From assembly GCA_020055645.1 (NCBI GenBank), contig CM034546.1, positions 140,017,875 to 140,081,874 on the forward strand: a DNA stretch of 64,000 bases, written 5' to 3'. Source of the DNA: Tomocerus qinae (Eukaryota; Arthropoda; Collembola; Entomobryomorpha; Tomoceridae). The notes beneath the pieces are model-generated. The model searched no databases. It was given only the letters and a program-made list of their open reading frames with translations, and was not told where the DNA came from. A program made the position numbers and the translations under genes. Every line of letters starts with the position of its first letter. Position 1 is the stretch's first letter. Positions 7,933-44,763 of the stretch are shown here, in pieces.

Positions 7933-8514
7933 GGACATTTTAACTTATGATTAATGATCGTAATGTGCGTATTAAATAGCATTTCAAAACTTCTAATAAA
8001 AATTGGTTCTGTTATATCGACAAACTTATTCAACATTTTTTTAGTAGAGCTGGGTTTACTTTTTACTACCCTCTTGATTCCTTTGTTCCAGTTGGGTCAT
8101 CTTCTAGTAGAATTAAATAACAGTACTCGGAGCCACTATTTACTGTTTAAAAATATTTATTCGTAAGTTGACTCAAGAGGGAGTCTTAGCTTTTTGATTT
8201 TTAAAGAAGCTTTTTGGTGACTTTGTGGAAGTTTTTTCGAAAATAGTCTTTCGTTATTCCCCGTATTTAATGCTACGTTCTACAGTTATTATTTTGGTGT
8301 AAGAAATTCCTTTTTATCAGGAAGTTTAGGCTGGAGCTAATTTTACCAACCACTGTAGAAAATAAAAGTATATTAATTTAAGTATACTTTGTATTTAAGA
8401 AGGCAACATAATAATCTAATAGAATGTTTTCGAAATTGTTTTCATTACTGTGATCGGTGGCCTGATGAATTTCTCTTGACTGCTAAATTTGCCCCTTAGC
8501 TGGGTTCATTAGTA
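7933..8514. repeat. Dispersed non-coding repeat E, copy 1 (about 580 bp)
   Basis: This copy shares its whole length with 33,137-33,744 in the same orientation. Shared blocks include TCTGTTATATCGACAAACTT, TACCCTCTTGATTCCTTTG, AAAAATATTTATTCGTAAGT and CTTAGCTGGGTTCA. It has no ORF, poly-A tail or clear terminal inverted repeat. It is a diverged interspersed element, non-autonomous or a solo remnant. Class undetermined. Confidence 0.75.
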
Positions 8515-9780
8515 TATACATTGTCACGGAGGAAATTTAAAGCCCTGAAACGTCTTAACGACAATGAATGTCGCTTTTGTTTAGGGGGCTGTGTAAAGTG
8601 TATAGGAGTGAATGCAGTAGCTAAAGCCAAAGCATCCACTCCTATCACTCAGGTAAAGGAATGAATGGACTAGCGACCGACGGAAATTGACATCTTATCA
8701 ATTTCTCGCCGGCCGCTGTCCCTTCTATCAATACATCGTATGATGGGTCCAGGTAGTGAACTCAGGTGAATCTTTTGTTTATTTCCCTAAAGTTCACTGC
8801 CTGGCCCTAATGAATAAAAATCTATGTACATGTCTTCCTAACTCTAAGTTTATTTATACCTGCTATTCCCTACCTACTATTATACTCTAAATTAACCTAC
8901 ACTACTACTCCCTACTAAATTATTATTTAAATTAAAGACATTCTACTTACCTTTTGTTGTAAGTCCGAATGTATGGAAAACTCCCTCTGCCACGTCCGGA
9001 CTTACGAGCTGGAGTTGACCCTACATTCGGACACATTAAGATTTATGTCTCCATACAGAGACTTATCACAATTTGTCAAACATATAAATAGTTTGAAGTG
9101 CCTGGGCACTTCATCTCATTTCTACTGTGGACTCGGCTGTGAACTGTTCTGTTCTTTTGCCCTGGACTGTTTTCTCTTTGTGCCTTACCTTGGACTTGGA
9201 TTTGTGCTGAAGCCTACTGTCAAAGTAAGTTGTTGCACTCTCCTTAGTCCTGTCTCACTATTCCCCATTAGGCCTACTTATATAACCTAACCTTGCCCAA
9301 CTTATATTCTAGATTCTAAATTTGTATTTTTATTTCGAGTTGGATTTTTGTTTGAACTTTATTTTAATAATAATTATTGGTTTTTCTCTTTTAAAAACGT
9401 ACTGGTATTCCTAATCATCATTTCTTTTGCCGCATTAGAGTTAGTCATAATTATTATTGAAGTTTAGACGAAAGCTTACCTAGTGAAGTTCATACATAAT
9501 TCTAAATTATTAATTATGATTCATGCTCATGCCTCTACCTCATCTACCGAATATTCAGCCAAGTAGTAGCGATAGTTAGACTGGATTTGTTTCATCTTTC
9601 TGACAGTTTTGCTATCATTACAACATGTAAAAGTGTACGACTTTTAACATTAGTCAAAACTTTTAAAACTATTAAAGCGTTACCAGTCGCAGTTGCGATT
9701 GTTCTGTGCATCGAAGTGGAAATTTCTAAACTAGAGGTATTCGGAAAAGCTTTACCTAATATGCATCGACTGTCATTATC
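8515..9780. other. Non-coding stretch with hairpins and a TATA-like promoter candidate
   Basis: No gene is recognised. Features seen: an imperfect inverted repeat around 8,745-8,806 (GGTCCAGGTAGTGAACT against AGTTCACTGCCTGGCC); a pyrimidine-rich run at 8,850-8,935; an inverted pair GTCCGAATGTA / TACATTCGGAC at about 8,963-9,035; TATAAATA at 9,083-9,090; and a hairpin TGAAGTGCC-TG-GGCACTTCA at 9,094-9,113. A good splice donor (CAAAG|TAAGT context) follows near 9,222. It might be an old promoter or LTR-like end, but I cannot support either. Confidence 0.35.
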
Positions 9781-39244: not shown

Positions 39245-39474
39245 CAGTGCATATTTTTCCATATTTATTGAAAAATACTTAAAAATGATCAAAGAACCCC
39301 GATAAAATTCAAAAATGATTTCGAAAATTCAAAAATGAATTTCGGAAATATTCGAAAAAAAAATGATCGAGGAATCTTAAAAAGATTCGAAAATGTTTGA
39401 AGAATTAAAGATATTCGAAAATGAGCGAAGAATATGGAAAAGATTCTAAACTGATTTAAGAATTGAAAATATTC
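39245..39474. repeat. Degenerate 30-bp GATCGAAGAATCTC.. repeat, left of P element
   Basis: Units such as 'GATTCGAAAATGATCGAAGA' and 'ATTCGAAAATGAGCGAAGAA' match the array at 43,876-44,640 in the same orientation. The P element lies between the two parts. Confidence 0.7.
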
Positions 39475-42400
39475 CATATACGAAGAAAGACATGAATTTC
39501 TATATAATACCTACAATCCTTTGCTGTTTACTGAACCCCACTTTTACTCTGAAACGAGCGTAGTTCTCTACGGATTGGTTAGGTAAGACAATGAGGATAG
39601 TGTAGTTCCATAATGATTGGTTCTTGTAAAACAATACCTAACAATATTGAGGGCGGAGTCAAGTAACATGTGACATTGCTGCATTTTGTGCTGCTACGTA
39701 AACATTGGTGTCAGCTGAGATAAATATTTGTAAATATTAAAGTTTACAAAGGTTAATAAATGTGTAATTTGTCAAACACCTGCAAAAAATGAAAATTTAT
39801 CTTTCTATCGTTTTCCAAGCACACCAGAAAGAAAAAAACAATGGCTCAAAATACTAAAACTACAACCCAATGCTCTAAAAAAACAAGTGTTGTGTGTGAC
39901 CAACATTTTAAAAGTGACCAAAAAAGAAGTTTTCGATTAATAAGGAAAGCTTTACCTTTTAGTGCAAGTATTAAAAATGAAGCAGGGAATTCAAAGTCTA
40001 TTTTATTTCAAAATCAAAGCCTAAATGGAATGACCAAACAAGGAACAGCTATAGTGTCTCCTTTACACCCTACATCGAAACAGCATCTACTCGAGTTCAA
40101 TATCAACGACAATGCCAATCTTAGTAATCAGACGCTTAGGTATAAATTAAATATATTTGCTACCGAAATCACAATATTCTTTTTTTTAAATAAAAAGAGA
40201 TATACAGGTTTATTTATTTTACAATGAAAATTTTGTTGCAGCTATCGACAACAATTTTCAGCAGTGGGTGGCAGTGATGGCACCGCTTTGGTCTATTCTT
40301 CACCTATGTTATTGATGTCAAAGGGTGCACATATTTTTAATGAAAATAATAATGTCAACCATTTTCATCAGAAATTTAGGTATTAAGCCAATGAATTTAG
40401 TATTTACACTGCATTTTTTGACTGAAATGAACACATTTTAATTGACAATATTTTATTACAGCTATTGTCAACCATATTCAGCAGTACATATGGGTCCGTC
40501 TTTTAATGGGATGACCTGGCAAGGACCAACTTTGATTCATCCTTCATCTCCGTTACTGGTATCACAGGCGGTGAAGGAAAATTTCAATCCTGATCATCAG
40601 ATGCTTAGGTATTAAATGAATTTATCATCTGCACAACATTGTTTAGTAGAGGTGAATGTAATTTTCACGATTATAATCATAGCAATCAGAATCCCATTGT
40701 GGCAGCAGATTTGAGCCCAAAAAATAATGGAATACCCAGGCGAGCAACAGCTTTGGTAAATCCTTCATTAAAGAGGAAATCATCTCGTTTGGATGCCGCA
40801 TCAAGTGAAAAGTTGTACCGGTATTTAAAAAAGGATTTAAAAATACTATATGGGCATTTAAAATCGGATGTATTTGCATAAATAAACGTGTTCACCTTTT
40901 TCATAATTTAAATAACGTTATCCAACTTAGATCAATTCACCCAAAGCCAACCGCTGAAATCCCTCCACAATCAATTGTACAGGATGCTGAGCTAAATATT
41001 TCAACCACTCCATGCAGAGGATCTATTAAAGATGGAAGGAAACTCTTTCGACTACGGACTAAATTGCGGTACAGTCAAAAAGCTAATCTAAGATTAAAAA
41101 GAAAAATATCAAAACAAAAAACATTGGACGAGAAGCTTCAATCCATATTTCTTAGTAATCCCGACGTGAAAGAAATTATTATTTCACAAGTTAAGCGTTA
41201 TCAAACTAATAAGCTACATGTCTATACTGAAACCGAGAAGAACACAGCTATGACTTTGTACTATTCTTGTGGCTCTAAAGGATATAGGTACTTCTAATAT
41301 AATTTTAAAATATCATATTATATTGTATCGTAATTGAAAAAGGATTTTTACAATTTTTTTTAAATCTTAGGACATTTCTCAAAATGGGATTTAAATTGCC
41401 TTCCGTCTCTACCATTAGTTTTTGGATGACAAGTTTTTCATTTGATGTGGGTTTAAACGAGCAGCTTATTCAAATAGTGAAGGAAAAAGTCAAAACGTTG
41501 AAAAAGAAGGAGAGAGAATGTATCCTTGTTTGGGACGAAGTTTCTGTCAAGGAATTATTAGAATATGACCGTAATAAAGATCGTTTGACGGGGATAGCGG
41601 ATCTAGGGGATGGAAATCGTAACCTAAATCTTGCAACCGAAAGTCTTGTTTTCATGATACAAGGTCTGTATGGTAGCTGGAGACTACCATTTTCGTATTA
41701 TTTTTCTTCGTCAAATACAACCACAGAAAATTTGAAGGCAATTGTACTTGCTAATATCAAGACAGTGTTCTCTTTGGGGTTATCCTTACGAGCATGTGTC
41801 TGTGATATGGGATTTTGCAATCAGGGACTTTATCGAGCTTGGGATGTAACTGCGGAAAAGCCCTACATAGAGGTAGACAACCATAAATTATATATGGTTT
41901 TCGATATGCCCCATTTGATTAAGCTAATAAGAAATAATTTAATGAAACATCATTTTGTTATTAATGGTAAGCCAAAGATTAGGATCAAAAGGTTATATAT
42001 TAATCAATTTCGAAACAAAGACAGGAATTGCACGTTAAGAATGGCACCTAAACTTTCCGATGCTCATTTTAACGTAAAGGATTTTGGAAAGATGAGGGTT
42101 AAGTTAGCGACTCAGGTTTTAAGTCATTCCGTTAGCACCGGAATGTTTAAATCTAAAAGGTTAAACAAATTAGCTAAACCAACCGCGGAGTTTGTAAAAA
42201 ATATTGACACTATGTTTGATTTGTGCAATATTTCTAAAATAACGGACACCAAGCCAGTAAAAAGGGCCAATAAAATACATGAAAACAATCACTTGTTTGA
42301 CAAGTATATAAAATTAGTTAAATCTATAGAACTACCAAGTGCAAAGTGTGGTAGACCTGATTTCTTAAGGGGTCTAGAGTTAACATTAACCGGTATAAAA

Positions 42401-43875
42401 ATGCTTATTGCAAATTTAAAATTAGATGGTTATAACTACGTATACACACGGAGAATTCAGCAAGACTGTGTTGAAAATTTCTTTTCTATGATAAGAGCAA
42501 AAGGAGGGTGGTGCAAAAACCCAACAACTAGACAGTTTAGAGAAAAATTCAGATTTTTAGTTTTTAACAGTGCCATCAGCATTTCTAAATATGCAAATTG
42601 TGAAAATGCTTCATTACATAACCTAATAACTATGTCAGATTTAAAAGCACTGGCTAAAACTAAGAATGAACAGCCAATTTGCGCAAATAACAGAGGTAAT
42701 GAATTTCGACCTCCTATTGGAGCAGCCACTCATGATACTGAGTTGGCATGTCCAAATCCTATGCTAGCAGCTACTCAGGCCACAGAGTCGTCAAATTGTT
42801 GCAAAAATTTTTTTCAAGTTCCAAAATCAGGGAAGGAGAAAGAGGCTACAATTAATGATCATAACAGAATGGTGGCCATGTACGTCGGTAGTTATTATGT
42901 CAAAAATAGTTTTATTAAAACTAATTGTGTAAAATGCAAAAGTATGCTTTTTAGTAGCGCGTTAACTTCTAAAAAAGAAATGCTATGTTTAGAAAAAGCC
43001 TATGCTATTGGTAAAAATCAAGATAAAAACTTGGGCTATAATACTACCCTTACAGAATTTAATTTTGATGTCTTCTTCTACATCGCAAAATTTTTTCACA
43101 GTGTGCTTAATAAAACTCTTGACACCCGTGGCGTTGATGTGATTAAAAATATGTTAACACATTTCAAAGGTATACAGTTAGTTAAGAATTGGTTAGATCC
43201 TTCCACTTGTGTTTGTGCACAGAATAGAGAAAATATAATGTTAAAATATTTGAGAATTATATTATTTCGAGTAGTCAAAGACAAAAACGAAAATGTAAAA
43301 CAATCAAAGTCATGGGGACAAACTAGACGAGATTTAAGAAACCAATAGACTAAGTTTAATTAACTTCAAATTAAATGGTACATCATTTACCAGCATAAAT
43401 CAATTAATTGTTATTCCAACAAGATTATTTCAGTTTGAGTACAAAGGTTTTCAAATTCCATTAATGACTATCTGAAAAATTGTGTAATTTTTATCAGAAA
43501 AAATAATTTTAATAAATTATGTGAGAATTAAAATTTATTTATGTTTTTCTTGTTTTTCATAATTGGACACGAACAAACAACCATTTCATCAATCTGATTT
43601 TGTTATAGATTTTATGTTTACCCAGATGAAATTCACAATCGCAAGAATCACGTTATCAGCAGACACAATCCACTTTAAATTTAAATTTTCGTTCCTTCCG
43701 CTATGCTCTGACTGTCGCTTGATTTACCAGATACAAGAAACCTCCCTAAGACCGCCTCCTCGAAATTCTAAACCAATGAGTAAATTCTCAAACTGGGCCT
43801 GTTTCTTTGCACATTGTTTCGATATCTTAATGTATAGAATATGCTATATTCTATACATGGCCTTCTTTATCTATG
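39475..43875 (+). mobile_element. P-element/THAP-type DNA transposon (4.4 kb)
   Basis: Boundaries come from three observations. The left end CATATACGAAGAAAGACATGAAT and the reverse complement of the right end CATAGATAAAGAAGGCCATG match at 17 of 23 positions. Both begin with CA as P-element termini do. Each end abuts the same 9-bp sequence AAAATATTC (39,466-39,474 and 43,876-43,884), consistent with the 8-bp target duplication of P elements plus a chance base. Because the target is a minisatellite rich in AAAATATTC, the duplication alone is weak evidence. Inside are a THAP-encoding 5' exon, four short exons and a 654-codon terminal ORF. A polyadenylation signal (AATAAA) lies near 43,512. Confidence 0.7.
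39753..43348 (+). CDS. P-element-type transposase (THAP + RNase H-like core)
   Basis: A cut-and-paste transposase related to Drosophila P and vertebrate THAP9. The inferred exons are to 40,139, 40,242-40,379, 40,462-40,608, 40,647-40,820, 40,931-41,287 and 41,371-43,348. All introns have GT/AG ends, and the four internal exons are multiples of three with matching phase. Exon 1 starts with a THAP finger ('CVICQTPAKNENLSFYRFPS', later 'VVCDQHF'); one base is missing in an A-run at 39,886-39,892, so the finger is split between two frames and no in-frame ATG precedes it. Exon 5 has a basic coiled coil. The last exon carries D51 ('WDEVSVKE'), D141 ('CDMGFCNQ'), 'DMPHLIKLIRNN' and E364 ('QDCVENFF'), the expected acidic residues. 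The core looks intact; the DNA-binding domain does not. Confidence 0.8.
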
Positions 43876-44641
43876 AAAATATTCGAAAAAGATCGAAGGT
43901 TCTTCAAAAGATTGGAAAAAGATCGTGGAATCTCGAAAATATTTAAAAATGAGCGAAAAAGATCGTGGAATCTCGAAAATATTTAAAAATGAGCGAAAAA
44001 TCTAGAAACGATTCTAAAATGATTGAAGAATTACAAATATTTGAAAATGAGCGAAGAATCTCGAAAAGATTCTAAAATGATTTAAGAATTGAAAATATTC
44101 GAAAAAGATCGAAGGTTCTTCAAAATATTCGAAAAAGATAGACGGGTTTTCAAAATATTCGAAAAAGCTCGACGGATCTCAAAACTATTCAAAAAAATCG
44201 AAGGATATCCAAAAGATTCGAAAAAGATAGAAGGTTCTTCAAAATATTCGAAAAAGATAGAAGGTTCTTCAAAATATTCGAGAAAGATAGAAGGTTCTTC
44301 AAAATATTCGAAAAAGATCAAAGGGACTCAAAAATATTCGAAAAAGATCAAAGGATCTCAAAAATATTTAAAAAAGATCGAAGGATCTCAAAAATATTCA
44401 AAAAAGATCGAAGGATCACAAAAATATTCAGAAAAGATCGAAGGATCTCAAAAATATTCAAAAAAGATCGAAGGATCACAAAAATATTCAGAAAAGATCG
44501 AAGGATCTCAAAAATATTCAAAAAAGATCGAAGCATATCCAAAAGATTCAAAAAATATCGAAGCATATCCAAAAGATTCAAAAAAGAACGAAGCATATCC
44601 AAAAGATTCAAAAAATATCGAAGCATATCCAAAAGATTCAT
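43876..44641. repeat. 30-bp minisatellite, about 25 copies, right of P element
   Basis: The unit is AAAAAGATCGAAGGATCTCA + AAAATATTC, with variants (CATATCC.AAAGATT at the right end). Long open frames in both directions (189 and 97 codons) are by-products of the unit length being a multiple of three. Confidence 0.95.
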
Positions 44642-44763
44642 ATGACAACATAGGATGAAATAGTTTCAGGGTAGAGTGTAGGATTTTTTATAATGGGGAA
44701 GTGTAGTCTATATAGAAAATTCTATTTGTTCCGATACAGTGAGCAAACCAAAATTATGTGTAA

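Follow-up and report, generated by a model that had tools for sequence, protein, structure and literature searches.

A putative palindromic coding cassette within tandem symmetric exons of P-element transposases in the collembolan Tomocerus qinae

Introduction

The transposase of the Drosophila P element is composed of a THAP domain, a coiled coil, a helix-turn-helix, an RNase H domain with a GTP-binding insertion, and a C-terminal domain, and contains a flexible disordered linker (PMC7776569; this and the other published sources are cited from excerpts). Anopheles P elements are described with three putative exons, one with an extra intron (PMC1562414), and the P elements in the excerpted accounts have 8-bp target-site duplications. 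In zebrafish THAP9, an insertion of about 100 residues, predicted to be disordered, lies between the THAP and dimerization domains and was proposed to bridge distant DNA sites or to reach remote repeats (PMC10983969). Here, we analyze a P element of Tomocerus qinae, located in a stretch of 64,000 nucleotides (assembly GCA_020055645.1, contig CM034546.1, positions 140,017,875–140,081,874 of the forward strand; further "the window"), whose transposase gene carries four copies of a short module between the THAP domain and the coiled coil.

Judging from the sequence, this linker consists of tandem copies of one symmetric phase-2 exon, and units of an exon plus an intron have been duplicated and exchanged repeatedly across a P-element clade. 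The observations given below also support an imperfect inverted repeat formed by 42 coding nucleotides (nt) of most modules, with similar cassettes located after RNase H and in an opposite-strand gene; both the inverted repeat of the motif at the nucleotide level and its recurrence outside the linker go beyond what the initial sequence-only reading of the window had claimed. We infer a palindromic coding cassette that resides in linkers, themselves probably disordered. Taken as a whole, this reading (an array of symmetric exons and a palindromic coding cassette that resides in linkers and is multiplied between phase-2 introns) has, in our judgment, an even chance of being correct. Titles and beginnings of abstracts in the open-access literature mentioned neither repeated exons in the linker of a P element nor a coding hairpin in one.

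Families of related elements in the genome are labeled A (the window element) to G, and individual loci L030 to L050.

Repeated Modules in Exons 1–4

Alignments, profiles, and DNA repeats confirm the four homologous modules that the sequence-only reading had proposed for exons 1–4, between the THAP domain and the coiled coil, and the peptides listed for them are indeed present at their positions. The module motif comprises 14 residues, approximately [TN][SN]G[MIV]xx[QR]GTxxxxP, coded by 42 nt. The pairwise resemblance exceeds chance for five of the six module pairs, as shown by comparison of Smith–Waterman scores with those of 2,000 shuffles: the real score is reached by no shuffle for modules 1 and 3; by one shuffle each for modules 1 and 2, 2 and 3, and 3 and 4; and by four for modules 1 and 4. 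Modules 2 and 4 alone are not significantly similar (951 of 2,000). A profile of the three other window modules recovers module 1 (E 0.00026), module 3 (E 0.0069), and, weakly, module 2 (E 0.19), while module 4 is not recovered by the profile of modules 1–3. A profile of 11 modules from families B, C, and E has its three best matches in the 64 kb, scanned in six frames, to window modules 1, 2, and 3 (E 0.0008, 0.0013, and 0.0039, respectively; the next match has E 1.3), with module 4 absent from the best 12 matches. The sibling version of module 4, NGMPRQGTALENP, is nearer to the motif than that of the window. In Pfam, 12 modules gave no match at E up to 1.

Every junction between the six exons of the window transposase is in phase 2. 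The internal exons are multiples of three, as had been claimed, with one correction: exon 4 is 138 rather than 174 bp long, so the four lengths are 138, 147, 138, and 357 bp. The earlier acceptor near 40648 was rejected, as it leaves an intron of ~40 nt and overextends exon 4 beyond its match to exon 3. The acceptor at 40683 (ATTATAATCATAG/C, the slash marking the junction) is likelier, since the preceding intron is then 74 nt long and exon 4 aligns to exon 3 without gaps across the first 29 residues. The similar donors of exons 1–3 are found where claimed (CTTAG/GTATAA, TTTAG/GTATTA, and CTTAG/GTATTA).

Exons 2–4 of family A are symmetric (phase 2-2), in the siblings as well as in the window, and their introns were duplicated with them. 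DNA-level repeats in the window cover the starts and ends of exons as well as portions of introns 2–3, and the partial homology of the introns implies that exon-plus-intron units were duplicated. The siblings L030 and L031 retain all four modules, with splice donor and acceptor dinucleotides identical to those of the window. Since any number of phase 2-2 exons preserves the reading frame, variation in module number is tolerated.

Module Arrays in Related Families

Full-length transposases of families B, C, and D are 62–65% identical to that of the window (54% for the broken D copy L043); families read at 62–65% identity carry modules or diverged traces of them, and two more distant families do so too. 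There are two module exons in family B (L035–L038), three in family C (L039, L040, L041, and L046), and three, the last of them shortened, in family E (L045, with the catalytic part missing); exon phases in these three families were read from a donor list restricted to in-frame donors. In family D (L034, L043), the THAP exon and the coiled-coil exon contain diverged motifs. Family F (L050 and L048) contains a 306-bp unit (4.3 copies with a 96% match, according to the repeat finder TRF), with four such units, a fifth module exon, and a sixth motif joined to the coiled-coil exon. A genome search added two more F copies and family G, the latter with five cores within the 1,551 bases read. The module count in related families ranges from ~2 to 6.

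Transposases of the distant group (families F and G, and L049) are 35–41% identical to that of the window. The motif G-[MIV]-x-x-[QR]-G-T is common to the window families and the 306-bp tandem units of the distant families, and hence is older than families A–E, with the arrays expanded separately. Genome searches at E up to 10 located the C module in 23 places and the A module in three, all of them within these elements.

Sister copies of family C display recent unequal exchange of exon units. Within L039, identity is 98% between the 60 nt of intron that precede exon 3 and the 60 nt that precede exon 4, and 96% between the 50 nt that follow exon 2 and the 50 nt that follow exon 3. Exon 2 of L039 and its following intron are 90% and 94% identical to unit 3 of L046, versus 84% and 49% to unit 2, while the intron upstream of this exon is 80% identical to unit 2 of L046 and 52% to unit 3.

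Together, these data support, as far as the sequence tells, exon duplication in a P-element transposase, which symmetric phase-2 exons permit and which makes the THAP-to-coiled-coil linker longer. The initial interpretation is therefore partly supported: its duplication reading was probably right; the expansion that it suggested to be lineage-specific is not limited to the window copy or a recent lineage, and separate expansions are seen.

Conservation and Pairing of the 42-nt Core

Comparisons at the nucleotide level support the view that in several families the 42-nt core is kept better than its peptide demands. Pooled over 11 modules (families B, C, and E), synonymous divergence (dS) amounts to 0.26 for the core (14–16 codons) and to 1.4 and 1.25 for the adjacent codons, the latter values being inflated because these codons were compared without gaps. 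B and C transposase exons have 60% third-position identity at codons with the same amino acid. The core L036_3 shares 12 and 13 of 14 third positions with L039_2 and L039_3, respectively, which reaches or exceeds the maximum of comparable exon-6 windows; L036_2 shares 10 and 11 with the same C cores, which is inside the range of exon-6 windows (99 comparable windows, maximum 12; four B–C core pairs were compared). The cores F1 and G2 are identical at 42 of 42 positions, while the windows following them drop to 17, and later ones stand at 20–36. Whole-genome scans with core patterns, allowing up to 3 mismatches, yielded 21 matches to the F/G pattern (three of them in the coiled-coil exon of F copies) and 18 to the C pattern, all in module-bearing elements; the reversed patterns, used as a control, yielded 0.

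The predicted fold of the family C core is an imperfect hairpin, with ten pairs enclosing a loop of 8 nt, and the outer arms GGA/TCC are mostly retained across cores. Folding energy alone is a weak test, since random synonymous sequences fold already; the ten-pair structure was fixed from family C and then scored in the other families against random synonymous codons. Strong pairing is seen in F_2 (10/10 pairs, p 0.001–0.006), F_6 (10/10, p 0.001–0.005), A_win4 (9/10, p 0.001–0.006), A_L031_4 (9/10, p 0.011), B_L036_2 (9/10, p 0.007–0.017), and E_L045_2 (10/10, p 0.029). Pooling of eight modules gives 66 of 80 pairs with 46.6 expected, a count reached by 0 of 2,000 synonymous randomizations. 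Between the C and F cores, five of the ten pairs have changed on both sides with the pairing retained.

The same trend is observed in the alignment of 22 cores, where 87.7% of cells are paired versus 68.6% after shuffling, and the covariation score is 0.471 versus 0.146 (0.179 for the best slid register); RNAalifold recovers nine of the ten pairs unaided. For 33 distinct cores (the 22 plus 11 rows, including poor D rows and window exon 2), the respective values are 86.7% versus 65.8% and 0.529 versus 0.159, the latter score reached by 0 of 500 shuffles, with 0.148 for the best slid version. Overall, the case for the hairpin is strong on pairing, not proven on selection.

Copies of the Core Outside the Linker

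A covariance model (CM) built from the 22 cores and run over 22 sources (227,670 bases) produced 59 matches at E up to 1. Of these, 44 fall in module sites of the THAP exon, the linker, or the F coiled-coil exon, and 15 are new sites. Nine of the new sites are in exon 6, directly after RNase H (window, L030, L031, L035–L038, L041, and L042; from E 1e-6 for L041 to E 0.062 for the window); one is in the coiled-coil exon of the D copy L043 (E 0.093); the others are on the opposite strand, in the 3' part of the element, in L045 (E 0.042) and in four B copies (E 0.53). A further opposite-strand copy, in L039 of family C, was detected through its peptide rather than with the CM.

The exon-6 cassette codes for approximately [IM]G[AV]A[TA][HQ]xTELACP, and its opposite-strand counterpart, inside a multi-exon gene of related elements, for SGVD[PA][QK]GT[VL]LSWP. 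The single frame and orientation relative to coding at the sites outside the linker suggest that the peptide is kept too. The cassette occupies two places where flexible linkers of P transposases are expected. L041 and L042 contain the exon-6 block; it is missing in frame from L039 and L040.

Counterarguments and Alternative Explanations

Several observations weigh against selection on a palindromic cassette. All exons are predictions. The p-values for the hairpin treat related modules as independent, and several cores are not significant against the synonymous null: B_L036_3 (9 pairs, p 0.17–0.19), E_L045_3 (6 pairs, p 0.63), A_win1 (7 pairs, p 0.31–0.45), A_win3 (7 pairs, p 0.06–0.08), A_L031_3 (6 pairs, p 0.09), D_L034_1 (5 pairs, p 0.24), and three D cores (p 0.26–0.47). 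In the core of window exon 2, 6 of 10 pairs form (p 0.012), and a slid register yields 8. Pair counts are high in the copies in exon 6 (10/10 in A, B, and C) and on the opposite strand (10 in E and C, 9 in B), with p 0.007–0.026 and at most 5 pairs in slid registers; however, the exon-6 copies and most of the opposite-strand ones were found with the structure model and are thereby selected for pairing. The new CM matches in exon 6 of the window, in the coiled-coil exon of D, and on the opposite strand of E and B are weak.

The two measures that, according to the program used, are least misled by relatedness are the number of pairs changed on both sides and the number of further pair types. For 22 rows, these are 6 versus 5.4 in shuffles (reached by 249 of 500; at most 4 in slid registers) and 14 versus 13.9 (313 of 500); for 33 rows, 8 versus 6.2 (35 of 500; slid at most 7) and 21 versus 18.8 (67 of 500). 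Since ten pairs saturate both measures, this is weak evidence against the hairpin. Paired changes could also arise through template switching within a quasi-palindrome. Furthermore, amino-acid constraint was not detected in family A modules between the window and its siblings: the ratio of replacement to silent divergence (dN/dS) is 1.1 (201 codons, 7 silent and 28 replacement changes), compared with 0.37 in exon 5 and 0.18 in exon 6. Together with the eroded core of exon 2, this suggests that the family A array may be decaying.

Plain exon duplication of a spacer is an explanation that would fit these observations: here, length alone would matter, the motif would reflect fading common descent, and the inverted repeat would be incidental or a product of template switching. 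The dN/dS of family A modules, the lost core of exon 2, and the two relatedness-robust measures, which do not exceed shuffles, agree with it, as does the zebrafish THAP9 insertion of ~100 residues at the same place, proposed as a linker in the excerpted text (PMC10983969). The outgroup element L049, from the group with 35–41% identity, has a serine/proline-rich linker with no motif by eye and no CM match, which is also in line with a plain spacer. On the other hand, a spacer would not be expected to keep F and G cores identical while their flanks diverge, nor to recur as a similar cassette, in the same frame, in exon 6 and the opposite-strand gene; the covariation score and the paired cells across families likewise argue against it, and we consider this explanation unlikely.

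The pairing and covariation could also reflect a regulatory hairpin in the mRNA, governing, e.g., the splicing of module exons, similar to the exonic splicing silencer that excerpts describe in Drosophila P (PMC7776569); the presence of one core copy in most module exons is consistent with this. However, GU/UG cells in the aligned cores are as common as AC/CA cells (19 vs. 18), which provides no support for a hairpin in the coding-strand RNA and does not favor RNA over DNA. The copies in exon 6 and the opposite-strand gene are not in cassette exons, and Rfam gave no match at the gathering threshold in five loci of 36,910 bases. We consider an RNA role improbable.

The dyad symmetry, the mismatches without strand preference, and the mostly kept outer arms would suit a double-stranded DNA site, the 42 nt being bound by the element's own transposase or a host factor in intragenic regulation. 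We regard this as quite unlikely too, as core patterns with up to 3 mismatches occur inside module-bearing genes only. Pattern matches are absent from element ends, so the sequence does not support the core as a terminal binding site. Subterminal inverted repeats in one A and one B element do not exceed chance: exact words of at least 9 nt shared by the ends number none in the window element, one of 9 nt in L031, and one of 10 nt in one B element, no better than in shuffles.

The Window Element, Its Siblings, and Other Features

The window element has the features of the P-element superfamily (Table 1): a THAP domain (PF05485, 27.9 bits at a cut-off of 23.9), an RNase H domain split by a GTP-binding domain (PF21787, PF21788, and PF21789 for the N- and C-terminal parts of RNase H and the GTP-binding insertion, each above the cut-off), terminal inverted repeats (TIRs; CATATACGAAGAAAGACATG and CATAGATAAAGAAGGCCATG), and a target-site duplication. 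Exon 6 matches the structure of Drosophila P transposase (PDB 6p5a) with E 5.6e-31. Target-site duplications are 9 bp long in four of four copies with both flanks read (window, L030, L031, and L037); those of L030 and L031 are GCAATTACC and GCAATAACC.

The window copy is broken: the ATG of L030, L031, and L033 is gone, and the THAP frame is broken at an A-run. Siblings L030 and L031 are full-length and 95% identical to the window element, and an alignment of the two has 15 differing columns out of 4,446; the reading frame of L031 is interrupted in exon 6. Relative to these siblings, the compared part of exons 1–4 has one 3-nt insertion and one 3-nt deletion, and intron 1 has indels of 1 and 5 nt; in exon 6, there are indels of 9 and 18 nt relative to L030, while L031 shows 1- and 2-nt indels. 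The A-run (39872–39887) is equally long in the window, L030, and L033, and differs in L031; such a difference in length could stem from an assembly error, a mutation, or slippage.

Table 1. Coordinates of the P element and its parts (window positions unless a locus is given)
Feature	Position	Strand	Remarks
P element, family A, both ends present	39475..43875	+	4,401 bp; boundaries common to siblings L030, L031
Target-site duplication, left copy	39466..39474		9 bp, AAAATATTC
Target-site duplication, right copy	43876..43884		9 bp, AAAATATTC
Exon 1: THAP domain and module 1	39749..40139	+	PF05485; start codon lost, THAP frame interrupted
Inverted-repeat core, module 1	40021..40062	+	7/10 pairs; CM 46.6 bits (training member)
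Exon 2: module 2	40242..40379	+	138 bp, phase 2-2; hairpin core eroded
Exon 3: module 3	40462..40608	+	147 bp, phase 2-2
Inverted-repeat core, module 3	40502..40543	+	7/10 pairs; CM 44.3 bits (training member)
Exon 4: module 4	40683..40820	+	138 bp, phase 2-2; acceptor corrected
Inverted-repeat core, module 4	40723..40764	+	9/10 pairs; CM 47.2 bits (training member)
Exon 5: presumed coiled-coil region	40931..41287	+	357 bp
Exon 6: catalytic part (RNase H, GTP-binding insertion) and C-terminal part	41371..43348	+	Pfam, PDB 6p5a
Weaker core copy in exon 6, after RNase H	42713..42754	+	10/10 pairs; CM 19.6 bits, not a training member; peptide PIGAATHDTELACP
Opposite-strand gene, L037	~7,940-9,670	-	
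Opposite-strand gene, L045	2,530-3,621	+	
Opposite-strand gene, L039		-	

The window element is hosted by a minisatellite array (30/58 bp), seen on both sides of it (39271–39474 and 43876–44650). Across the 334-Mb genome, the P-type RNase H family (PF21787) has at least 157 matches.

The opposite strand of elements in families B, C, and E encodes an additional multi-exon gene (FFDVEKLT...HSAIIDARKTRDLW), for which the window element has no room, as only ~530 bp follow its transposase exon. A resemblance to exonucleases, suggested by eye, found no backing in the databases, with no Pfam match above the cut-off and no PDB match below E 0.39; the best NCBIfam match has E 0.032, so the gene is left unassigned.

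In family C, the second module exon contains an in-frame TAG in L039 (4612–4773), L040, and L041 (6490–6651), absent from L046; skipping of a symmetric exon could bypass it. Next to L041, at G000:C7:811935-818497, there are five tandem fragments of a transposase exon with ~1.36 kb spacing. Finally, COX1, open under the invertebrate mitochondrial code, is found within a 140-Mb contig (G000:C1:36670928-36672268) and is apparently a nuclear copy; the code points to an invertebrate host, most likely an arthropod.

Discussion

For an array of symmetric exons carrying a palindromic cassette, the following mechanism may be suggested. The cassette would be captured in an exon flanked by phase-2 introns, where unequal exchange could multiply it cheaply and yield an exon array. 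Its peptide might serve as a repeated spacer or a short binding motif, allowing THAP domains to reach sites at a variable distance from the catalytic core; by analogy with the zebrafish THAP9 insertion and the Drosophila P linker, a spacer plus a short motif is taken as the probable role in the protein. The inverted repeat, in turn, might act as a dyad DNA site or as a stem-loop in element mRNAs. A stronger version, with the 42-nt cassette selected both as a peptide and as an inverted repeat and spreading in frame among P-element genes to form a self-expanding exon array, is a tentative proposal that we consider rather doubtful.

If such a cassette exists, it would be a eukaryotic counterpart of palindromic coding elements, and, were the inverted repeat truly selected, a rare case of a coding repeat with a dual purpose in an animal transposon. 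The arrays themselves show the domain spacing of a cut-and-paste transposase evolving via exon number, with the families of ~2–6 modules as natural replicates.

Comparison with Known Systems

The window element shares with the P-element superfamily (Drosophila P, Anopheles P, zebrafish Pdre2/THAP9) the THAP domain, the RNase H domain with a GTP-binding insertion, and TIRs beginning with CA; it differs in the linker of four repeated modules and in target-site duplications of 9 rather than 8 bp. Rickettsia palindromic elements are likewise palindromic sequences found in frame in unrelated protein genes, although they are much longer, bacterial, and not arranged as exon arrays. Zebrafish THAP9 has a long insertion at the same place, which the excerpted text does not describe as repeated or as duplicated exons (PMC10983969). 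PARCEL repeats, as presented in excerpts (PMC2996958), are also tandem coding repeats of variable number with dyad symmetry, linked to mobile elements in some taxa. They differ in having a 25-residue amphipathic motif and in occurring in unicellular microbes, often in membrane proteins (PMC2996958, same excerpts), whereas the cassette considered here codes for 14 residues in exons of an animal DNA transposon. Tandem coding repeats and dyad symmetry are thus common to both, and a unicellular microbial host is not. PARCEL repeats are the nearest known analogy for the cassette, which we do not classify as one of them, but suggest may work like one.

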